Source: an uncultured Acidobacteriota bacterium (GTDB lineage Bacteria; Acidobacteriota; Thermoanaerobaculia; Gp7-AA8). From it: a stretch of DNA of 39,225 nucleotides. Shown here in pieces: positions 1-39,206 of the stretch; position 1 is the stretch's first letter; every line of letters starts with the position of its first letter. A model generated the notes under the pieces. The model worked only from the letters and a program-made list of their open reading frames with translations, had not been told where the DNA came from and searched no databases. A program made the position numbers and the translations under genes. The stretch spans positions 1 to 39,225 of the forward strand of contig CAMPKJ010000014.1 in assembly GCA_946887105.1 (NCBI GenBank). The letters are read 5' to 3'.

Positions 1-24
1 TCGTTTTAACTGCGGTTTTCCCGA

Positions 25-77
25 GACTCTAAGACTCTAAGACTCTAAGACTCTAAGACTCTAAGACTCTAAGACTC
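25..77. repeat. Tandem octamer array, family E (GACTCTAA)
   Basis: Six exact head-to-tail copies of GACTCTAA run from 25 to 72, followed by a partial copy to 77. The array ends one base before the stop codon of the minus-strand lytic transglycosylase gene. Unlike the other short-unit elements in this window, only one arm is visible. By analogy the reverse-complement arm (TTAGAGTC units) would lie left of the window edge. The array is too short-period and spacer-free to be CRISPR. Confidence 0.9.
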
Positions 78-790: not shown

Positions 791-890
791 GAGTTCCTCG
801 GAGTGCCCTCGGAGTGCCTCGGTTCCTCGGGCAGAACACTCCGCGGAACTCCGAGGAACTCCGAGGAACCGAGGAACCGAGGAACTCCGA
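791..890. repeat. Inverted short-unit repeat hairpin, family B copy 1
   Basis: Left arm (about 791-831) is made of TTCCTCGG/AGTGCC-type units. A short loop (832-840) separates it from the right arm (841-890), made of GGAACTCCGA and GGAACCGA units. The arms are largely reverse complements. The right arm contains CCGAGGAACTCCGAGGAAC, which also occurs in family B copies 2 and 3. It lies in the 135-bp gap between two divergent genes, so it cannot be a simple terminator for either, and its last GAGGA (879-883) is the only Shine-Dalgarno-like sequence ahead of the MazG-like ATG. Confidence 0.85.
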
Positions 891-1705: not shown

Positions 1706-1710
1706 CGGCG

Positions 1711-1762
1711 AACGATGAACGATGAACGATGAGGGCGCCACGGCTTTCATCGTTCATCGTTC
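1711..1762. repeat. Inverted heptad hairpin, family A copy 1
   Basis: Three GAACGAT-type heptads (1711-1732) are followed by an about 13-nt loop and then the reverse complement units (1746-1762). AACGATGAACGATGAA pairs perfectly with TTCATCGTTCATCGTT. It separates two convergent genes and overlaps the last codons and the TGA of the minus-strand aminotransferase (1754-1756). A bidirectional terminator role is plausible from position, but there is no T tract. Confidence 0.85.
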
Positions 1763-20320: not shown

Positions 20321-20400
20321 CGCAAGTCTCAAAGTCGCAAAGTCTCAAAGAGAATGATCGCGCGCTCTTTGAGACTTTGCGACTTTGAGACTTTGCGACT
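20321..20400. repeat. Inverted octamer hairpin, family C copy 1
   Basis: Left arm 20321-20352 alternates AAGTCTCA and AAGTCGCA octamers. A 12-nt loop follows, then a right arm at 20365-20398 that is its reverse complement with one extra T, giving a stem of about 32 bp. It separates the stops of two convergent genes, so it may act as a bidirectional terminator, yet no T tract follows. The right arm shares CTTTGAGACTTTGCGACTTT with family C copy 2 at 37.7 kb, 17 kb away, while the loops differ. Confidence 0.9.
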
Positions 20401-23443: not shown

Positions 23444-23562
23444 TGTTGTCAGTTGTCGGTTGTCGGTTGTCTGTGACTCTACGCCTCGGCGTCGTGTGCC
23501 GCGGGAGCCGACTTGGCCTCGTGCGTTGCCGCACAGACAACCGACAACCGAGAACCGACAAC
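23444..23562. repeat. Inverted heptad element, family D copy 1 (short loop)
   Basis: Left arm 23444-23475 consists of GGTTGTC/AGTTGTC heptads ending in GTCTGTGA. The right arm 23532-23562 starts with CACAGACAACCGACAACC and continues with the same heptads. The 56-nt loop has no gene. The inner ends (CTGTGA and GCACAGAC) and the arms are shared with family D copy 2 at 26.05-26.56 kb, which instead holds a protein gene. It occupies most of the 163-bp gap between the two ABC exporter genes, so it must be transcribed through if they form one operon. Confidence 0.9.
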
Positions 23563-23579
23563 CGCGAGCGAAACGAGCG

Positions 23580-25364
23580 TCACGCCGTCTCCTCCAACTC
23601 CGCCTCGATGGTCTGGCGGCGATAGAGGTCGGCGTAGTAACCGCCCTTCGCGAGAAGCGTGTCGTGCGTGCCGCGCTCGACGATGGCGCCGTCGTCGAGC
23701 ACCACGATCGCGTCGGCGTCTTTCACCGACGACACGCGATGCGACACGATCAGCACCGTGCGTCCTTCGCGAATGCTCCGCAGCGCGTTCAGGATCCGCT
23801 CCTCGGTCTGCGTGTCGACCGCGCTCAACGAGTCGTCGAGGATCAGGATCAACGGATCGCGCACCAGCGCACGCGCAATGGCGGTGCGCTGTTTCTGTCC
23901 GCCGGAAAGCGTGATGCCGCGTTCCCCGATGATGGTGCGCAGTCCCTCCGAGAACGTGGCCACGTCGGACGTCAGCCCCGCTTGTGCCGCCGCTTCGTCG
24001 ATCTCTTCGTCCGTTGCATCGGCGCGGCCGAAGCGGATGTTCTCGGCCAGCGTTTCGGAGAAGAGAAACGTTTCCTGCGGCACCATGCCGATCCATTCGC
24101 GCAGTTGGCGCATCGGGATGGTCTCGATCGGACGTCCGGCCACGAAGATCGTGCCCGGCGGCGGCTCGAACGCGCGCGTGATCAGGTTCAGCAGCGTCGA
24201 CTTTCCGCTGCCGGTGCGGCCGACGATGCCGATGGTCTGTCCGTGCTGCACCGTCAGATCGATGTCGCGCAGCACGGGACGATGTCCGTACGAGAACGTG
24301 AGATCGCGGATACGAAGAAGTTCCTCGGGTTCCTCGGCGTTCCTCGGAGTTCCTCGGGTGGCGGGGCTCTCCTCCGAGGAACTCCGAGGAACCCCGAGGA
24401 CCTCCGAGGAACCGGCGTCGACCGTCCAGATCTCGTGCAGCCGCTTCATCGACGCCATGCCGCGCTGGAAGAGATTGATCACCCAGCCGAGCGCGATCAG
24501 CGGCCACACCAGGCGGCCGAGGTAGAACTGGAAGGCGACGAAGGAACCGATGGTCATCGTGCCGGCCAGGATTTCCCGGCTGCCCGCGTAAAAGATGAAT
24601 ACGAACAGCAGTCCCACCAGCGTCTGCAGCGACGGATGAAACATCGCATTCAGCCGGATGAGCGAGCGGTTGCGCTCCACGAACTCGTGATTCATCCGCT
24701 TGAAGTTCTCGGTCTCGTTGCGCTCGCGCGTGAACGCGCGCACGACGCGCACGCCGGAGAGGTTCTCCTGCACGCGCGCGGAGATGTCGCCGAAGTAGTC
24801 CTGCACCGCTTTCGAGCGGATGTGGATGCGCTCGCCGAAATACTTGGCCATCCCGCCGACGACCGGCACGGCCAGCAACGACACGAGCGCCATGCTGCCG
24901 TCGATGCGCACCATCATCACGAACGCGCCGGAGACGACGAGCAGCGCCGAGATGGAGTGCATCACGGCCGGCCCGACCAGCATGCGTACGGAGGCGAGGT
25001 CGTTCGTGGCGCGCGACATCAGATCGCCGGTGCGCTGTCCCTGATAGAACTCGAGCGGCAGGCGCTGCAGGTGTGCGTAGAAGTCGTCGCGCATGTCGTA
25101 TTCGATGTGCCGCGATGCGCCGATGAGAATCCAGCGCTGCAGGTAGAGGAAGATGCCCTCCACCGCCGCCGCGCCGATGAGCAGCAGTCCATAACGGACG
25201 AGCATGCCGCGCGTGAAGTTGCCGCCGAGGGTGTCGACCGCGCTGCCGATGATGAGCGGCTTGAGCAGCGAGAAGACCGCCGAGCCGATCACGCATGCGG
25301 CGCCGAGGGAGAGGCTGCGTTTGTAGCGCGCGAAGTAGCCGAGGAGCCTGGAGAGCGGAGTCAT
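23580..25364 (-). CDS. Heterodimeric ABC exporter subunit (degenerate Walker B)
   Basis: A 594-aa half transporter: six-helix transmembrane domain (about 1-305) and nucleotide-binding domain (about 350-590). Walker A is GRTGSGKST, the Q-loop VPQETFLFSE, the signature canonical LSGGQ (486-490), and the H-loop SHRVSS. Walker B reads LILILDDS, so the catalytic Glu is Asp511. This degenerate half-site would face the LSVGE signature of the partner, as in heterodimeric exporters. The linker between domains (about 318-348) is translated family B repeat, rich in Ser, Glu, Pro and Arg and unlike family linkers. It is coupled by an ATGA overlap to the small gene upstream. Confidence 0.93.
   Translation of the reverse strand: MTPLSRLLGYFARYKRSLSLGAACVIGSAVFSLLKPLIIGSAVDTLGGNFTRGMLVRYGLLLIGAAAVEGIFLYLQRWILIGASRHIEYDMRDDFYAHLQRLPLEFYQGQRTGDLMSRATNDLASVRMLVGPAVMHSISALLVVSGAFVMMVRIDGSMALVSLLAVPVVGGMAKYFGERIHIRSKAVQDYFGDISARVQENLSGVRVVRAFTRERNETENFKRMNHEFVERNRSLIRLNAMFHPSLQTLVGLLFVFIFYAGSREILAGTMTIGSFVAFQFYLGRLVWPLIALGWVINLFQRGMASMKRLHEIWTVDAGSSEVLGVPRSSSEESPATRGTPRNAEEPEELLRIRDLTFSYGHRPVLRDIDLTVQHGQTIGIVGRTGSGKSTLLNLITRAFEPPPGTIFVAGRPIETIPMRQLREWIGMVPQETFLFSETLAENIRFGRADATDEEIDEAAAQAGLTSDVATFSEGLRTIIGERGITLSGGQKQRTAIARALVRDPLILILDDSLSAVDTQTEERILNALRSIREGRTVLIVSHRVSSVKDADAIVVLDDGAIVERGTHDTLLAKGGYYADLYRRQTIEAELEETA
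24321..24412. repeat. Family B inverted repeat inside an ABC transporter gene (copy 2)
   Basis: Left arm 24321-24358 is four TTCCTCGG-type units. The loop is 24359-24371. The right arm 24372-24412 is CCGAGGAA-type units, reverse complementary to the left. It shares CCGAGGAACTCCGAGGAAC with copies 1 and 3. It is read in frame as residues of about 318-348 of the exporter subunit, in the flexible joint between transmembrane and ATPase domains, the one place an insertion would be tolerated. Confidence 0.9.
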
Positions 25365-25754: not shown

Positions 25755-26018
25755 TCATTGCGGCTGTCGCGCCCGAAGCCCGGCCGCAATCTCATCGAGC
25801 CGAGCCTGATGGAAGTCGTTGACGAACTTCTGCAACTCCCCCTCCCGCGACTCGTCGATGTCCTCGGCATACACCTTCTTCAACGCCCCGCCCAGATAGA
25901 CCTTGGTCTCGACACGCCACGCCGGCCGCGAGAAGAACTCGGTCTGGATGGTGAGCTTTTTCGAGGCAACGTCGATGGCGTCGAGACGGCCCATGGGTGG
26001 GGTGGCGGGTTCTCGCAT
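25755..26018 (-). CDS. Small hypothetical protein
   Basis: An 87-aa soluble protein of unknown family. A beta-rich first half (LDAIDVASKKLTIQTEFF, WRVETKVYLGG) is followed by an amphipathic helix (GELQKFVNDFHQARLDEIAAGL). The start is uncertain: ATG at 26018 and ATG at 25994 are both in frame and neither has a clear Shine-Dalgarno sequence. The Gly-Arg-Leu-Asp context after the second start looks more protein-like than the Pro-rich first eight residues. The gene ends 10 bp before the next, so it probably opens the exporter operon. It begins 32 bp from the left arm of the family D element. Confidence 0.55.
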   Translation of the reverse strand: MREPATPPMGRLDAIDVASKKLTIQTEFFSRPAWRVETKVYLGGALKKVYAEDIDESREGELQKFVNDFHQARLDEIAAGLRARQPQ

Positions 26019-26050: not shown

Positions 26051-26562
26051 GGTCGGTTGTCGGTTGTCTGTGAGGTAGCGTAGGATTGGCGCTCCACGCC
26101 GAGCGCGGTCAATCGCAGCGCCGTCCTCCCACCACGATCGATTCATGCCTCATTTGAAGACTTGCGTGCGTTTCAGCGCGCCATCGATCTCATGGTCGAC
26201 ATATACACCGCGACCGAGACTTTTCCGCGACACGAGGTGTATGGCCTCAGGTCGCAGTTACGACGCGCCTCGTGCTCGGTCGTGAGCAACATCGCTGAAG
26301 GTCAGGGGCGGCTCACGTATGGCGAGTGGCGCCAATTGCTCAGCCACGCACGGGGCTCGTTGTACGAGGTACAGGCGCAAGTGATCGCGTCGCAGCGACT
26401 GGACTTCCTGAGCACGTCGGCAGCGGAACACTTGCAGAAACGAATCCGCTTGGCAGCACGCGAACTTGCGGGTCTCATCACTTGGATCAGAAAGCGCGAA
26501 GCTGAGAGCAAACGCCGCAAGAACCACGAGGCACAGACAACCGACAACTGACAACCGACAAC
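26051..26562. mobile_element. Family D inverted-repeat element carrying a four-helix-bundle gene (copy 2)
   Basis: Left arm 26051-26073 (GGTTGTC heptads ending GTCTGTGA) and right arm 26532-26562 (CACAGACAACCGACAAC then further heptads) are inverted, with about 20 of 21 positions matching. The interior of about 458 bp is almost wholly one gene (26162-26551). The arms match copy 1 at 23.4 kb including the inner CTGTG/CACAG ends, so copy 1 looks like a version without cargo. No transposase, no target-site duplication and no other gene are visible, so mobility is inferred from the shared arms only. Confidence 0.65.
26162..26551 (+). CDS. Four-helix-bundle protein, 23S rRNA intervening-sequence/Avd-like family
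   Basis: Belongs to the small four-helix-bundle family found in 23S rRNA intervening sequences and related to Avd of diversity-generating retroelements. Core motifs are FPRHEVYGLRSQLRRAS, SVVSNIAEGQGRLT and GSLYEVQAQVIASQRL (129 aa as read from TTG). The expected N-terminus S-F-E-D-L-R-A-F is encoded in this frame just upstream (26150-26173), but the nearby ATG (26145) is out of frame by one base. No ATG, GTG, TTG or CTG precedes 26162 in frame back to a stop at 26081. It is therefore either started at TTG 26162 or frameshifted. The last residues QTTDN and the TGA come from the right repeat arm. Likely RNA/DNA-binding; biochemical role unknown. Confidence 0.8.
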   Translation: MRAFQRAIDLMVDIYTATETFPRHEVYGLRSQLRRASCSVVSNIAEGQGRLTYGEWRQLLSHARGSLYEVQAQVIASQRLDFLSTSAAEHLQKRIRLAARELAGLITWIRKREAESKRRKNHEAQTTDN

Positions 26563-34211: not shown

Positions 34212-34233
34212 GCGGGGATTGTACGGTGAGGCG

Positions 34234-34344
34234 GTTCCTCGGGTTCCTCGGGTCCTCGGAGTTCCTCGGCCGGGGCTGGCTGGCTGGCCGAGGAACCCGA
34301 GGAACCCGAGGAACCCGAGGAACTCCGAGGAACTCCGAGGAACT
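34234..34344. repeat. Inverted short-unit repeat hairpin, family B copy 3
   Basis: Left arm 34234-34269 of GTTCCTCGG units, loop 34270-34286 (with GGCTGGCTGGCTGGCC character), and a long right arm 34289-34344 of CCGAGGAAC units. It contains the 19-mer shared by all three family B copies. It fills the space between the start of the YvlD-like gene and the stop of the heme lipoprotein gene (34349), leaving only 4 bp on the latter side. Confidence 0.9.
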
Positions 34345-39130: not shown

Positions 39131-39206
39131 AACGATGAACGTTGAACGAGGAACGATGAATGGGGCGCGTATTGTTTCATCGTTCCTCGTTCGTCGTTCA
39201 TCGTTC
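39131..39206. repeat. Inverted heptad hairpin, family A copy 2
   Basis: Left arm 39131-39160 reads four heptads GAACGAT, GAACGTT, GAACGAG, GAACGAT in order. After a 15-nt loop, the right arm 39176-39206 carries the complementary heptads in mirror order, pairing 28 of 30 bases. The variant heptad GAACGAG is matched by its exact complement, so arm identity goes beyond simple tandem repeats. It lies upstream of the SurA-like gene, and the gene on its far side is outside the window. Confidence 0.9.

Follow-up and report, generated by a model that had tools for sequence, protein, structure and literature searches.

Intervening sequences (IVSs) of 23S rRNA genes exist also in a gene-less form, and heptad repeats are reportedly on record since the 1990s, with work by Vioque in 1997. 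Avd, a protein of diversity-generating retroelements (DGRs), is a pentameric ring with a nucleic-acid partner, and the trp RNA-binding attenuation protein TRAP is an 11-mer ring that binds (G/U)AG triplets, one regularly spaced motif per protomer; TRAP, whose fold is unrelated to that of the proteins treated here and which has no mobility, may serve as an analogy for a ring that reads spaced motifs. In PMC4990558 the IVS of Coxiella burnetii is given as about 430 nt long and is suspected of mobility, known IVS elements are placed in rRNA helices, and a four-helix-bundle (FHB) protein of Xanthomonas is described as a homopentamer. REPIN/RAYT systems, as covered in PMC3116915, have two inverted arms that form a hairpin, many non-autonomous copies per genome, and a distinct trans-encoded gene beside each family that co-diversifies with its repeat. 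The elements described below share these traits, the co-diversification by analogy, within a phylum only and with one unit of six negative; they differ from REPIN/RAYT in that the gene is of the FHB family and not a Y1 transposase, and in that the arms are tandem heptads and not single REP palindromes. The cyanobacterial STRR, Xanthomonas GGGAATC and Nostoc GGGGA(T/C)T repeats also consist of 7-nt tandem units in intergenic hairpins, with 70 convergent pairs in X. campestris and an STRR function called unknown; the accessible text of PMC2670836 and PMC4692102, the sources for these repeats, states no link to FHB genes.

We analysed a stretch of 39,225 nt (the window) from an uncultured Acidobacteriota bacterium, which carries two inverted heptad arrays, D1 and D2, laid out as follows.

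23444-23564: D1, whole element, cargo-free
23444..23475, + strand: D1 left arm, GTTGTCA/GTTGTCG heptads ending in TCTGTG, with CTGTG at 23471-23475
23476..23531, no strand: D1 loop, 56 nt, gene-free
23532..23564, + strand: D1 right arm, inverted heptads, with CACAG at 23532-23536
26051-26562: D2, whole element, gene-bearing
26051..26072, + strand: D2 left arm, GTTGTCG heptads ending in TCTGTG, the inner end, with CTGTG at 26068-26072
26162..26551, + strand: FHB gene (PF05635/TIGR02436 family), with a TTG start or a disturbed 5' end and its stop codon within the right arm
26532..26562, + strand: D2 right arm, CACAGACAACCGACAACTGACAACCGACAAC, inverted heptads, with CACAG at 26532-26536; it contains the stop codon at 26549-26551

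Both elements are real, as a preliminary description of this DNA had proposed: the shared inner ends GGTTGTCTGTG / CACAGACAACCGACAAC (CTGTG/CACAG) and the enclosed 56 nt in D1 and 459 nt in D2 can be read directly. Their hairpins fold with z values of -7.3 (D1) and -3.7 (D2), and the arms of D2 are unequal, the left (about 21 nt) being shorter than the right (31 nt). An origin of the D2 arms from two independent, unrelated arrays, which the preliminary description had named as the reading that would undo its own, was rejected. The inverted-flank score, taken as the best local alignment between the 220 nt upstream of a gene and the reverse complement of the 220 nt downstream, is 37 for D2 and lies above all 1898 random segments of the window (99th percentile 26, maximum 30). 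No target-site duplication was seen by eye at D1 or D2, nor was any movement seen, and the window yielded no tRNA. By ABC transporter protein, the closest relatives among 396 genomes searched are G002 (75%) and G003 and G014 (71% each).

D2 resembles the C. burnetii IVS, as described in PMC4990558, in its protein family, in a comparable length and in inverted terminal repeats that pair into one stem, and the predicted terminal stem of D2 is a possible RNase III substrate. Like IVSs, these elements come both with and without the gene. Unlike the IVS, D2 sits outside rRNA, between an ORF at 25755-26018 and a sigma-70 gene; elements of its kind comprise several families per genome, with phase-locked tandem 7/8-mer arms and trans-matching cargo-free copies, and have non-rRNA locations in five phyla, two of which contribute a single locus each. 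The D1/D2 pair shares its ends like an IS/MITE pair but has no transposase gene. We consider it probable that D2 and D1 are the gene-bearing and gene-less forms of one REPIN/RAYT-like family without a recognisable transposase, in which an FHB pentamer recognises the heptad hairpin of its own family. Sequence comparison shows the association of FHB genes with arms, the period and polarity of the arrays, the pairing of unit and protein within a phylum, the fit of most cargo-free hairpins to the units of resident FHB genes in the sampled genomes, and the presence or absence of elements at given sites; that the protein binds the arms and promotes their copying is inferred. The kind of element is widespread and apparently so far undescribed; in an open-access library, no earlier report linking FHB genes to heptad hairpins was found.

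The assignment of the D2 cargo to the 23S-IVS four-helix-bundle family is borne out by the open frame from 26147, which matches PF05635 with an E-value of 1.3e-28 and 99.8 bits (cut-off 33.8). The D2 protein has 595 homologs, the best of them 99% identical, and TIGR02436 scores 94.4 bits (cut-off 24) on the 99%-identical relative P0001. Compared with P0001, the 5' end of the gene (26145-26162) is disturbed: an in-frame ATG is absent and the first usual start is the TTG at 26162, so that the gene may start from TTG or be in decay. Since translation ends within the right arm, the last residues of the protein are array-encoded. An AlphaFold2 model of P0001 with A1 has four helices and a mean pLDDT of 92.5; Foldseek aligns it to 2gsc (Xcc0516, a pentamer; TM 0.80/0.94) and to 2rld (Bacteroides S23 family), chains A to E.

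The association of FHB genes with inverted arms extends far beyond D2. A scan of genome contigs with a single protein gave no confirmed FHB locus; a scan with an alignment gave six, and PF05635 was then sought in the genomes of those loci. Matches came from 31 of 60 genomes in the class to which G001 belongs and from 61 of 80 in the phylum of G004. Flanks were scored for 139 loci, a part of all matches (23 from G001-G003, 63 from 23 other genomes of the class, 24 from G004-G006 and, as the best matches listed, 29 from further Bacteroidota), of which four with flanks under 60 nt were dropped, leaving 135. A score of at least 30 was counted as flanked. For Acidobacteriota 64 of 83 loci qualify, against 0.8% of 1103 random segments; for Bacteroidota the figures are 31 of 52 loci and 0.26% of 781 segments. 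Among 28 plasmid records with FHB genes, 16 loci were fetched (14 from cyanobacteria, where those of Trichormus and Scytonema are nearly identical, one from Azospirillum, Pseudomonadota, and one from Gemmatirosa, Gemmatimonadota), and 14 of these are flanked; the other two, from Picosynechococcus and Nostoc HK-01, score 29 and 20, and 60 random segments reach at most 24. The enrichment of the gene family between inverted short-unit arms that the preliminary description had called for is thus present in all three sets, far above chance.

The rule has exceptions. The score stays below 30 in 40 of the 135 loci, 21 of them among the 52 of Bacteroidota, and the Ferruginibacter locus, one of the original six, reaches only 26. 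Fourteen of the 19 Acidobacteriota misses score below 65 bits for PF05635. Some flanked genes score as low, and full-length genes of G001, G024 and G026 are among the misses. G024 has 25 PF05635 matches and inverted arms at none of the seven examined; its genes are perhaps a subgroup outside the heptad-hairpin system. Several plasmid genes sit amid operon partners of cyanobacterial CRISPR operons, namely cas6/cas4 and cmr2/cmr3 (L230, L233 and L239), and one lies between two ribonucleotide reductase genes on the opposite strand; those in CRISPR operons are likely insertions and not CRISPR accessory genes. A defence or toxin function of FHB was set aside, no result pointing there. One Bacteroidota query found no FHB match in a phage collection, and three viral contigs carry the GGGAATC pattern three times in a row.

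The period of the arms is mostly 7 nt and sometimes 8, whatever the sequence of the unit. Across 69 elements the arms match themselves at 0.65/0.66 for lag 7 and at 0.57-0.67 for lags 14 and 21, as against 0.20-0.37 at other lags up to 24. Arrays of 7 and 8 nt also prevail in 800 kb from three genomes and in the window, and a chance origin was rejected because 3-mer shuffles yield 0-1 arrays per period and region. Cargo-free arms tend to begin and stop in phase, typically with four units plus three nucleotides: dividing their length by 7 leaves 2-4 in 58 of 78 arms (33.4 expected, p 1.7e-8), and dividing it by 8 leaves 2-4 in 22 of 34 (p 0.0012), with a detector that is blind to arms under about 17 nt. 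Five register positions are the commonest count, both in cargo-free arms (37 of 78 7-mers, 20 of 34 8-mers) and in FHB elements of Acidobacteriota, where 44 of 90 arms with 7-mer units have five; among the 20 8-mer arms of the latter the phasing is not significant. Taken with the five chains of the 2rld match, this count suggests, as a hypothesis, that each FHB protomer takes one register position.

The idea that D1 is a cargo-free sibling implies that hairpins elsewhere should resemble the arms of resident FHB genes, and in the two genomes compared most of them do. For 35 cargo-free pairs in G003 the mean similarity to resident FHB arms is 19.3, falling to 6.6 with the unit flipped and to 3.4-15.1 with the arms of other genomes; the values for 19 pairs in G002 are 16.6, 6.1 and 4.7-10.1. 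A similarity of at least 14 is reached by 74% of the pairs in G003 and 68% in G002, and by 0% of the flipped ones in both. The comparison left out 14 FHB loci without a profile match, among them the AAATTGA element of G003, and some AATTGA-type hairpins are therefore counted as unmatched. Where a spacer in the sampled stretches measures about 390-600 nt, the pair is one of the seven resident FHB elements. Three pairs whose spacers measure 187, 295 and 641 nt (in the last case probably through mispairing) hold no clear FHB remnant, the best candidate being a 30-residue stretch with E 0.003, and 200 kb sampled from G005 contain FHB elements but no cargo-free pair.

Six units, picked from known arms or from the window, were then followed through 60 genomes, counting three-unit arrays with one mismatch, calling genomes with at least 10 hits array-rich, and taking as cognate an FHB gene flanked left and right by the unit at no more than four mismatches in 21. 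AGTSCTG has a cognate in all seven array-rich genomes, and also in G018 and G043, where it stands without arrays. CAGACCR is array-rich only in G003 and G049, both with a cognate, and FHB genes with a CAGACCR-like unit occur without such arrays in G014 and G020. Cognates accompany AACGATG in three of five array-rich genomes and GAAGGCA in four of five (two of five at three mismatches). GGTAGCG is array-rich only in G003 and G049, where the FHB gene of G049 qualifies only at five mismatches; its counts of 198 and 11 hits, with 0 elsewhere, were as forecast beforehand. The forecast for GAAGGCA was right for G002 (373 hits) and G033 (186) and missed G001 (222 hits, with only a four-mismatch cognate), G061 (29) and G041 (18). 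GGTTGTC, the unit of the window, has a cognate in neither of its two array-rich genomes as scored; a looser one exists in G033 and none was found in G026. Weak or partial FHB matches have inverted arms in two of six cases (G053:C162 and G045:C120, neither with the sought unit) and none at G026:C44, G033:C56, G037:C337 and G030:C9. Pooled over six units and 60 genomes, a cognate is present in 17 of 23 array-rich cells against 6 of 337 others, with a p of 1.7e-19 that ignores kinship among the genomes and the choice of units. Both in G002 and G003 and for five of the six units, the notion of cargo-free siblings holds.

These figures also bear on the alternative that the hairpins came first, spreading by slippage, recombination and replication errors, with FHB genes as passengers in their loops. 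It would fit the residence of IVS elements in rRNA helices (PMC4990558), the excess of cargo-free over gene-bearing pairs in the sampled stretches (35 to 2 in G003, 19 to 1 in G002), and arrays for which no cognate was found, namely GGTTGTC in G026, AACGATG in G053 and G041, and GAAGGCA in G061. However, no hit for any of the six units occurs in the 29 genomes, out of 60, where PF05635 finds no match, most cargo-free hairpins fit a resident FHB unit together with its polarity, and plain slippage does not predict phase-locked arms with a commonest number of units; we regard this alternative as unlikely, if worth keeping in view.

If each family has its own unit and protein, the two should change together. 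This expectation of the preliminary description held inside one phylum and failed across two. For 94 elements (the 95 scoring at least 30, minus one with a protein under 60 residues), arm similarity to the closest protein from a different genome within the phylum is 14.98, whereas permuting units within genomes gives a mean of 7.81 (sd 0.57, maximum 9.92) and 0 of 1000 permutations reach the observed value. Similarity on the opposite strand is only 6.95, so that the polarity of the arrays is conserved too, and only 5% of 187 pairs of FHB elements inside one genome share a unit. Between Acidobacteriota and Bacteroidota the signal is absent (6.13 vs 5.92, reached by 170 of 1000 permutations). 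Since gene and arms are adjacent, common descent of the linked element could by itself yield the co-variation within a phylum; only matches in trans escape this, and the trans tests given above weigh more.

A second trace of the partnership lies in the proteins. Because 7 leaves a remainder of 1 on division by 3, all three frames of a heptad array give one and the same heptapeptide cycle (QPTTDNR for CAACCGA, QPATSNQ for CAACCAG and QTPDTRH for CAGACAC). A C-terminal tail was counted as array-encoded if four or more residues of a cycle stand near its end; four cycles were used, picked after viewing the tails. Such tails occur in 77 of 120 listed homologs (of 595), compared with 1.9% of shuffled tails. 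Among the 76 homologs of a single class, the nearest neighbour by core sequence has the same tail class in 92% of cases, as against 34% with shuffled labels (maximum 55%); tail class thus tracks core kinship, which indicates that an FHB gene and its particular array stayed together. The stop codon falls inside or past the downstream arm in 35 of the 95 flanked loci.

The preliminary description's statement that no transposase is involved stands for the element itself, the D2 gene being PF05635, though Y1 genes (PF01797) are common around it: they occur in 46 of 60 genomes, often in many copies, and in every array-rich genome except G041. They might thus be the true agents, moving heptad hairpins in trans as TnpA-REP transposases with FHB along for the ride. 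We find this improbable, because tandem 7/8-nt arrays lie on both flanks of none of 20 Y1 genes in G003, G022 and G014 (on one side in 2 of 20 with 600-nt flanks), as against 12 of 19 FHB genes in the same genomes, all 19 of which have inverted arms, and because G041, a draft genome, has an FHB element and AACGATG and GAAGGCA arrays (10 and 18 hits) with zero Y1 hits. Seven of the 20 Y1 genes have inverted flanks of their own (11 with 600-nt flanks); unlike RAYT genes, the Y1 genes of heptad-array genomes carry other inverted repeats or none. A role of FHB like that of Avd, serving a distant reverse transcriptase that copies hairpin RNAs into DNA, is to our mind very improbable. The P0001 model does match Avd at TM 0.68/0.82-0.84 (4dwl, 8ub7), with DGR complexes that contain Avd among the hits, Avd being likewise a four-helix bundle. 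The Avd and bAvd profiles of NCBIfam and Pfam also score, though below their cut-offs, on P0001, P0010 and P0015 (NF033474 at 24-34 bits against 80, PF22296 at 18-25 against 40), and RVT_1 occurs in 17 of 60 draft genomes, including six array-rich ones (G002, G003, G014, G026, G033, G049). Yet an RVT_1 match is absent from seven array-rich draft genomes (G022, G057, G037, G053, G001, G041 and G061). Unlike a DGR, the element showed neither a reverse transcriptase nor a template/variable repeat.

At the corresponding sites in relatives the elements vary. The D1 site, between two ABC genes, holds an AGTGCTG hairpin in G003, a GAGTGAC/GAGTGAT hairpin in G014 and a GTTGTC-like stretch in G026, and the genes abut in G022 and G018. 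In G002 it holds a long non-heptad palindrome (L203 7953-8093), possibly a REP-type hairpin, which would place two systems on one junction. The D1 junction is reused repeatedly, or its hairpin is converted between families. The gene order around D2 is kept only in G014 and G022, where the intergenic gap, measured from tblastn ends, is about 146 and 88 nt and contains neither FHB nor heptads. Variation at both sites among relatives indicates that insertions differ between species.

In the mechanism that we propose, two phase-locked inverted arms of tandem 7-nt (sometimes 8-nt) units would fold into one long hairpin whose loop encodes an FHB protein, unit and protein both being specific to the family. 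The putative FHB pentamer would recognise the heptads of its family as a DNA or RNA hairpin, in the simplest case with one register position for each protomer, and such recognition would allow both gene-bearing and gene-less copies of the hairpin to reach new sites, mostly intergenic in the cases seen, by way of the replication or repair machinery of the host. In such a system the 23S rRNA intervening sequences with FHB family genes would have a genome-wide relative. We predict that the STRR, Xanthomonas and Nostoc heptads are cargo-free members, the evidence for this being the cyanobacterial plasmid FHB genes with heptad arms. A broader proposal, which we put forward tentatively and with some doubt, is that of a new class of mobile elements that lack a transposase and span five phyla or more, whose FHB ring would read five positions and drive hairpin duplication via host machinery, whose units and proteins would drift into incompatible families, and whose products would include the 23S IVSs, the STRRs and the Xanthomonas heptads. 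If true, a widespread family of function-unknown proteins (four helix bundle / S23 protein) would acquire a genomic role, heptad repeats would have a proposed origin, rRNA intervening sequences would be joined to a genome-wide element, and the code pairing a small ring protein with a 7-nt unit might represent a novel mode of nucleic-acid recognition. The finding is in any case larger than the one first drawn from D1 and D2 alone.

The window carries further inverted short arrays beyond D1 and D2, with units of 7-10 nt.

791..890, no strand: cargo-free hairpin, unit about GGAACTCCGA
1710..1762, no strand: cargo-free hairpin of a family other than that of D1/D2, unit AACGATG
20324..20400, no strand: cargo-free hairpin, 8-nt unit AAGTCTCA/AAGTCGCA
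24319..24412, no strand: GGTTCCTCGG-type hairpin, within the ABC transporter coding region 23580-25364, in the linker between two domains
34232..34343, no strand: cargo-free hairpin, unit GGTTCCTCG(G), matched by FHB arms at G003:C30
37653..37742, no strand: cargo-free hairpin, 8-nt unit AAGTCTCA/AAGTCGCA
39131..39206, no strand: cargo-free hairpin, unit AACGATG

The unit AACGATG also flanks FHB genes in G001, G014 and G037, and no FHB arm among those compared matches the 8-nt unit. Arrays of 9 nt (GGGACCGAT and AGGACGAAT) are paired as inverted arms in G002:C41 and G003:C10; none of the FHB arms compared has either unit. At the edge of the window (24-77) lies an array of 6.8 copies of AGACTCTA, any partner arm of which would fall outside it. 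The ABC transporter linker that holds the GGTTCCTCGG-type hairpin contains a different palindrome in G002 and is shorter in G003, G014, G026 and G022.
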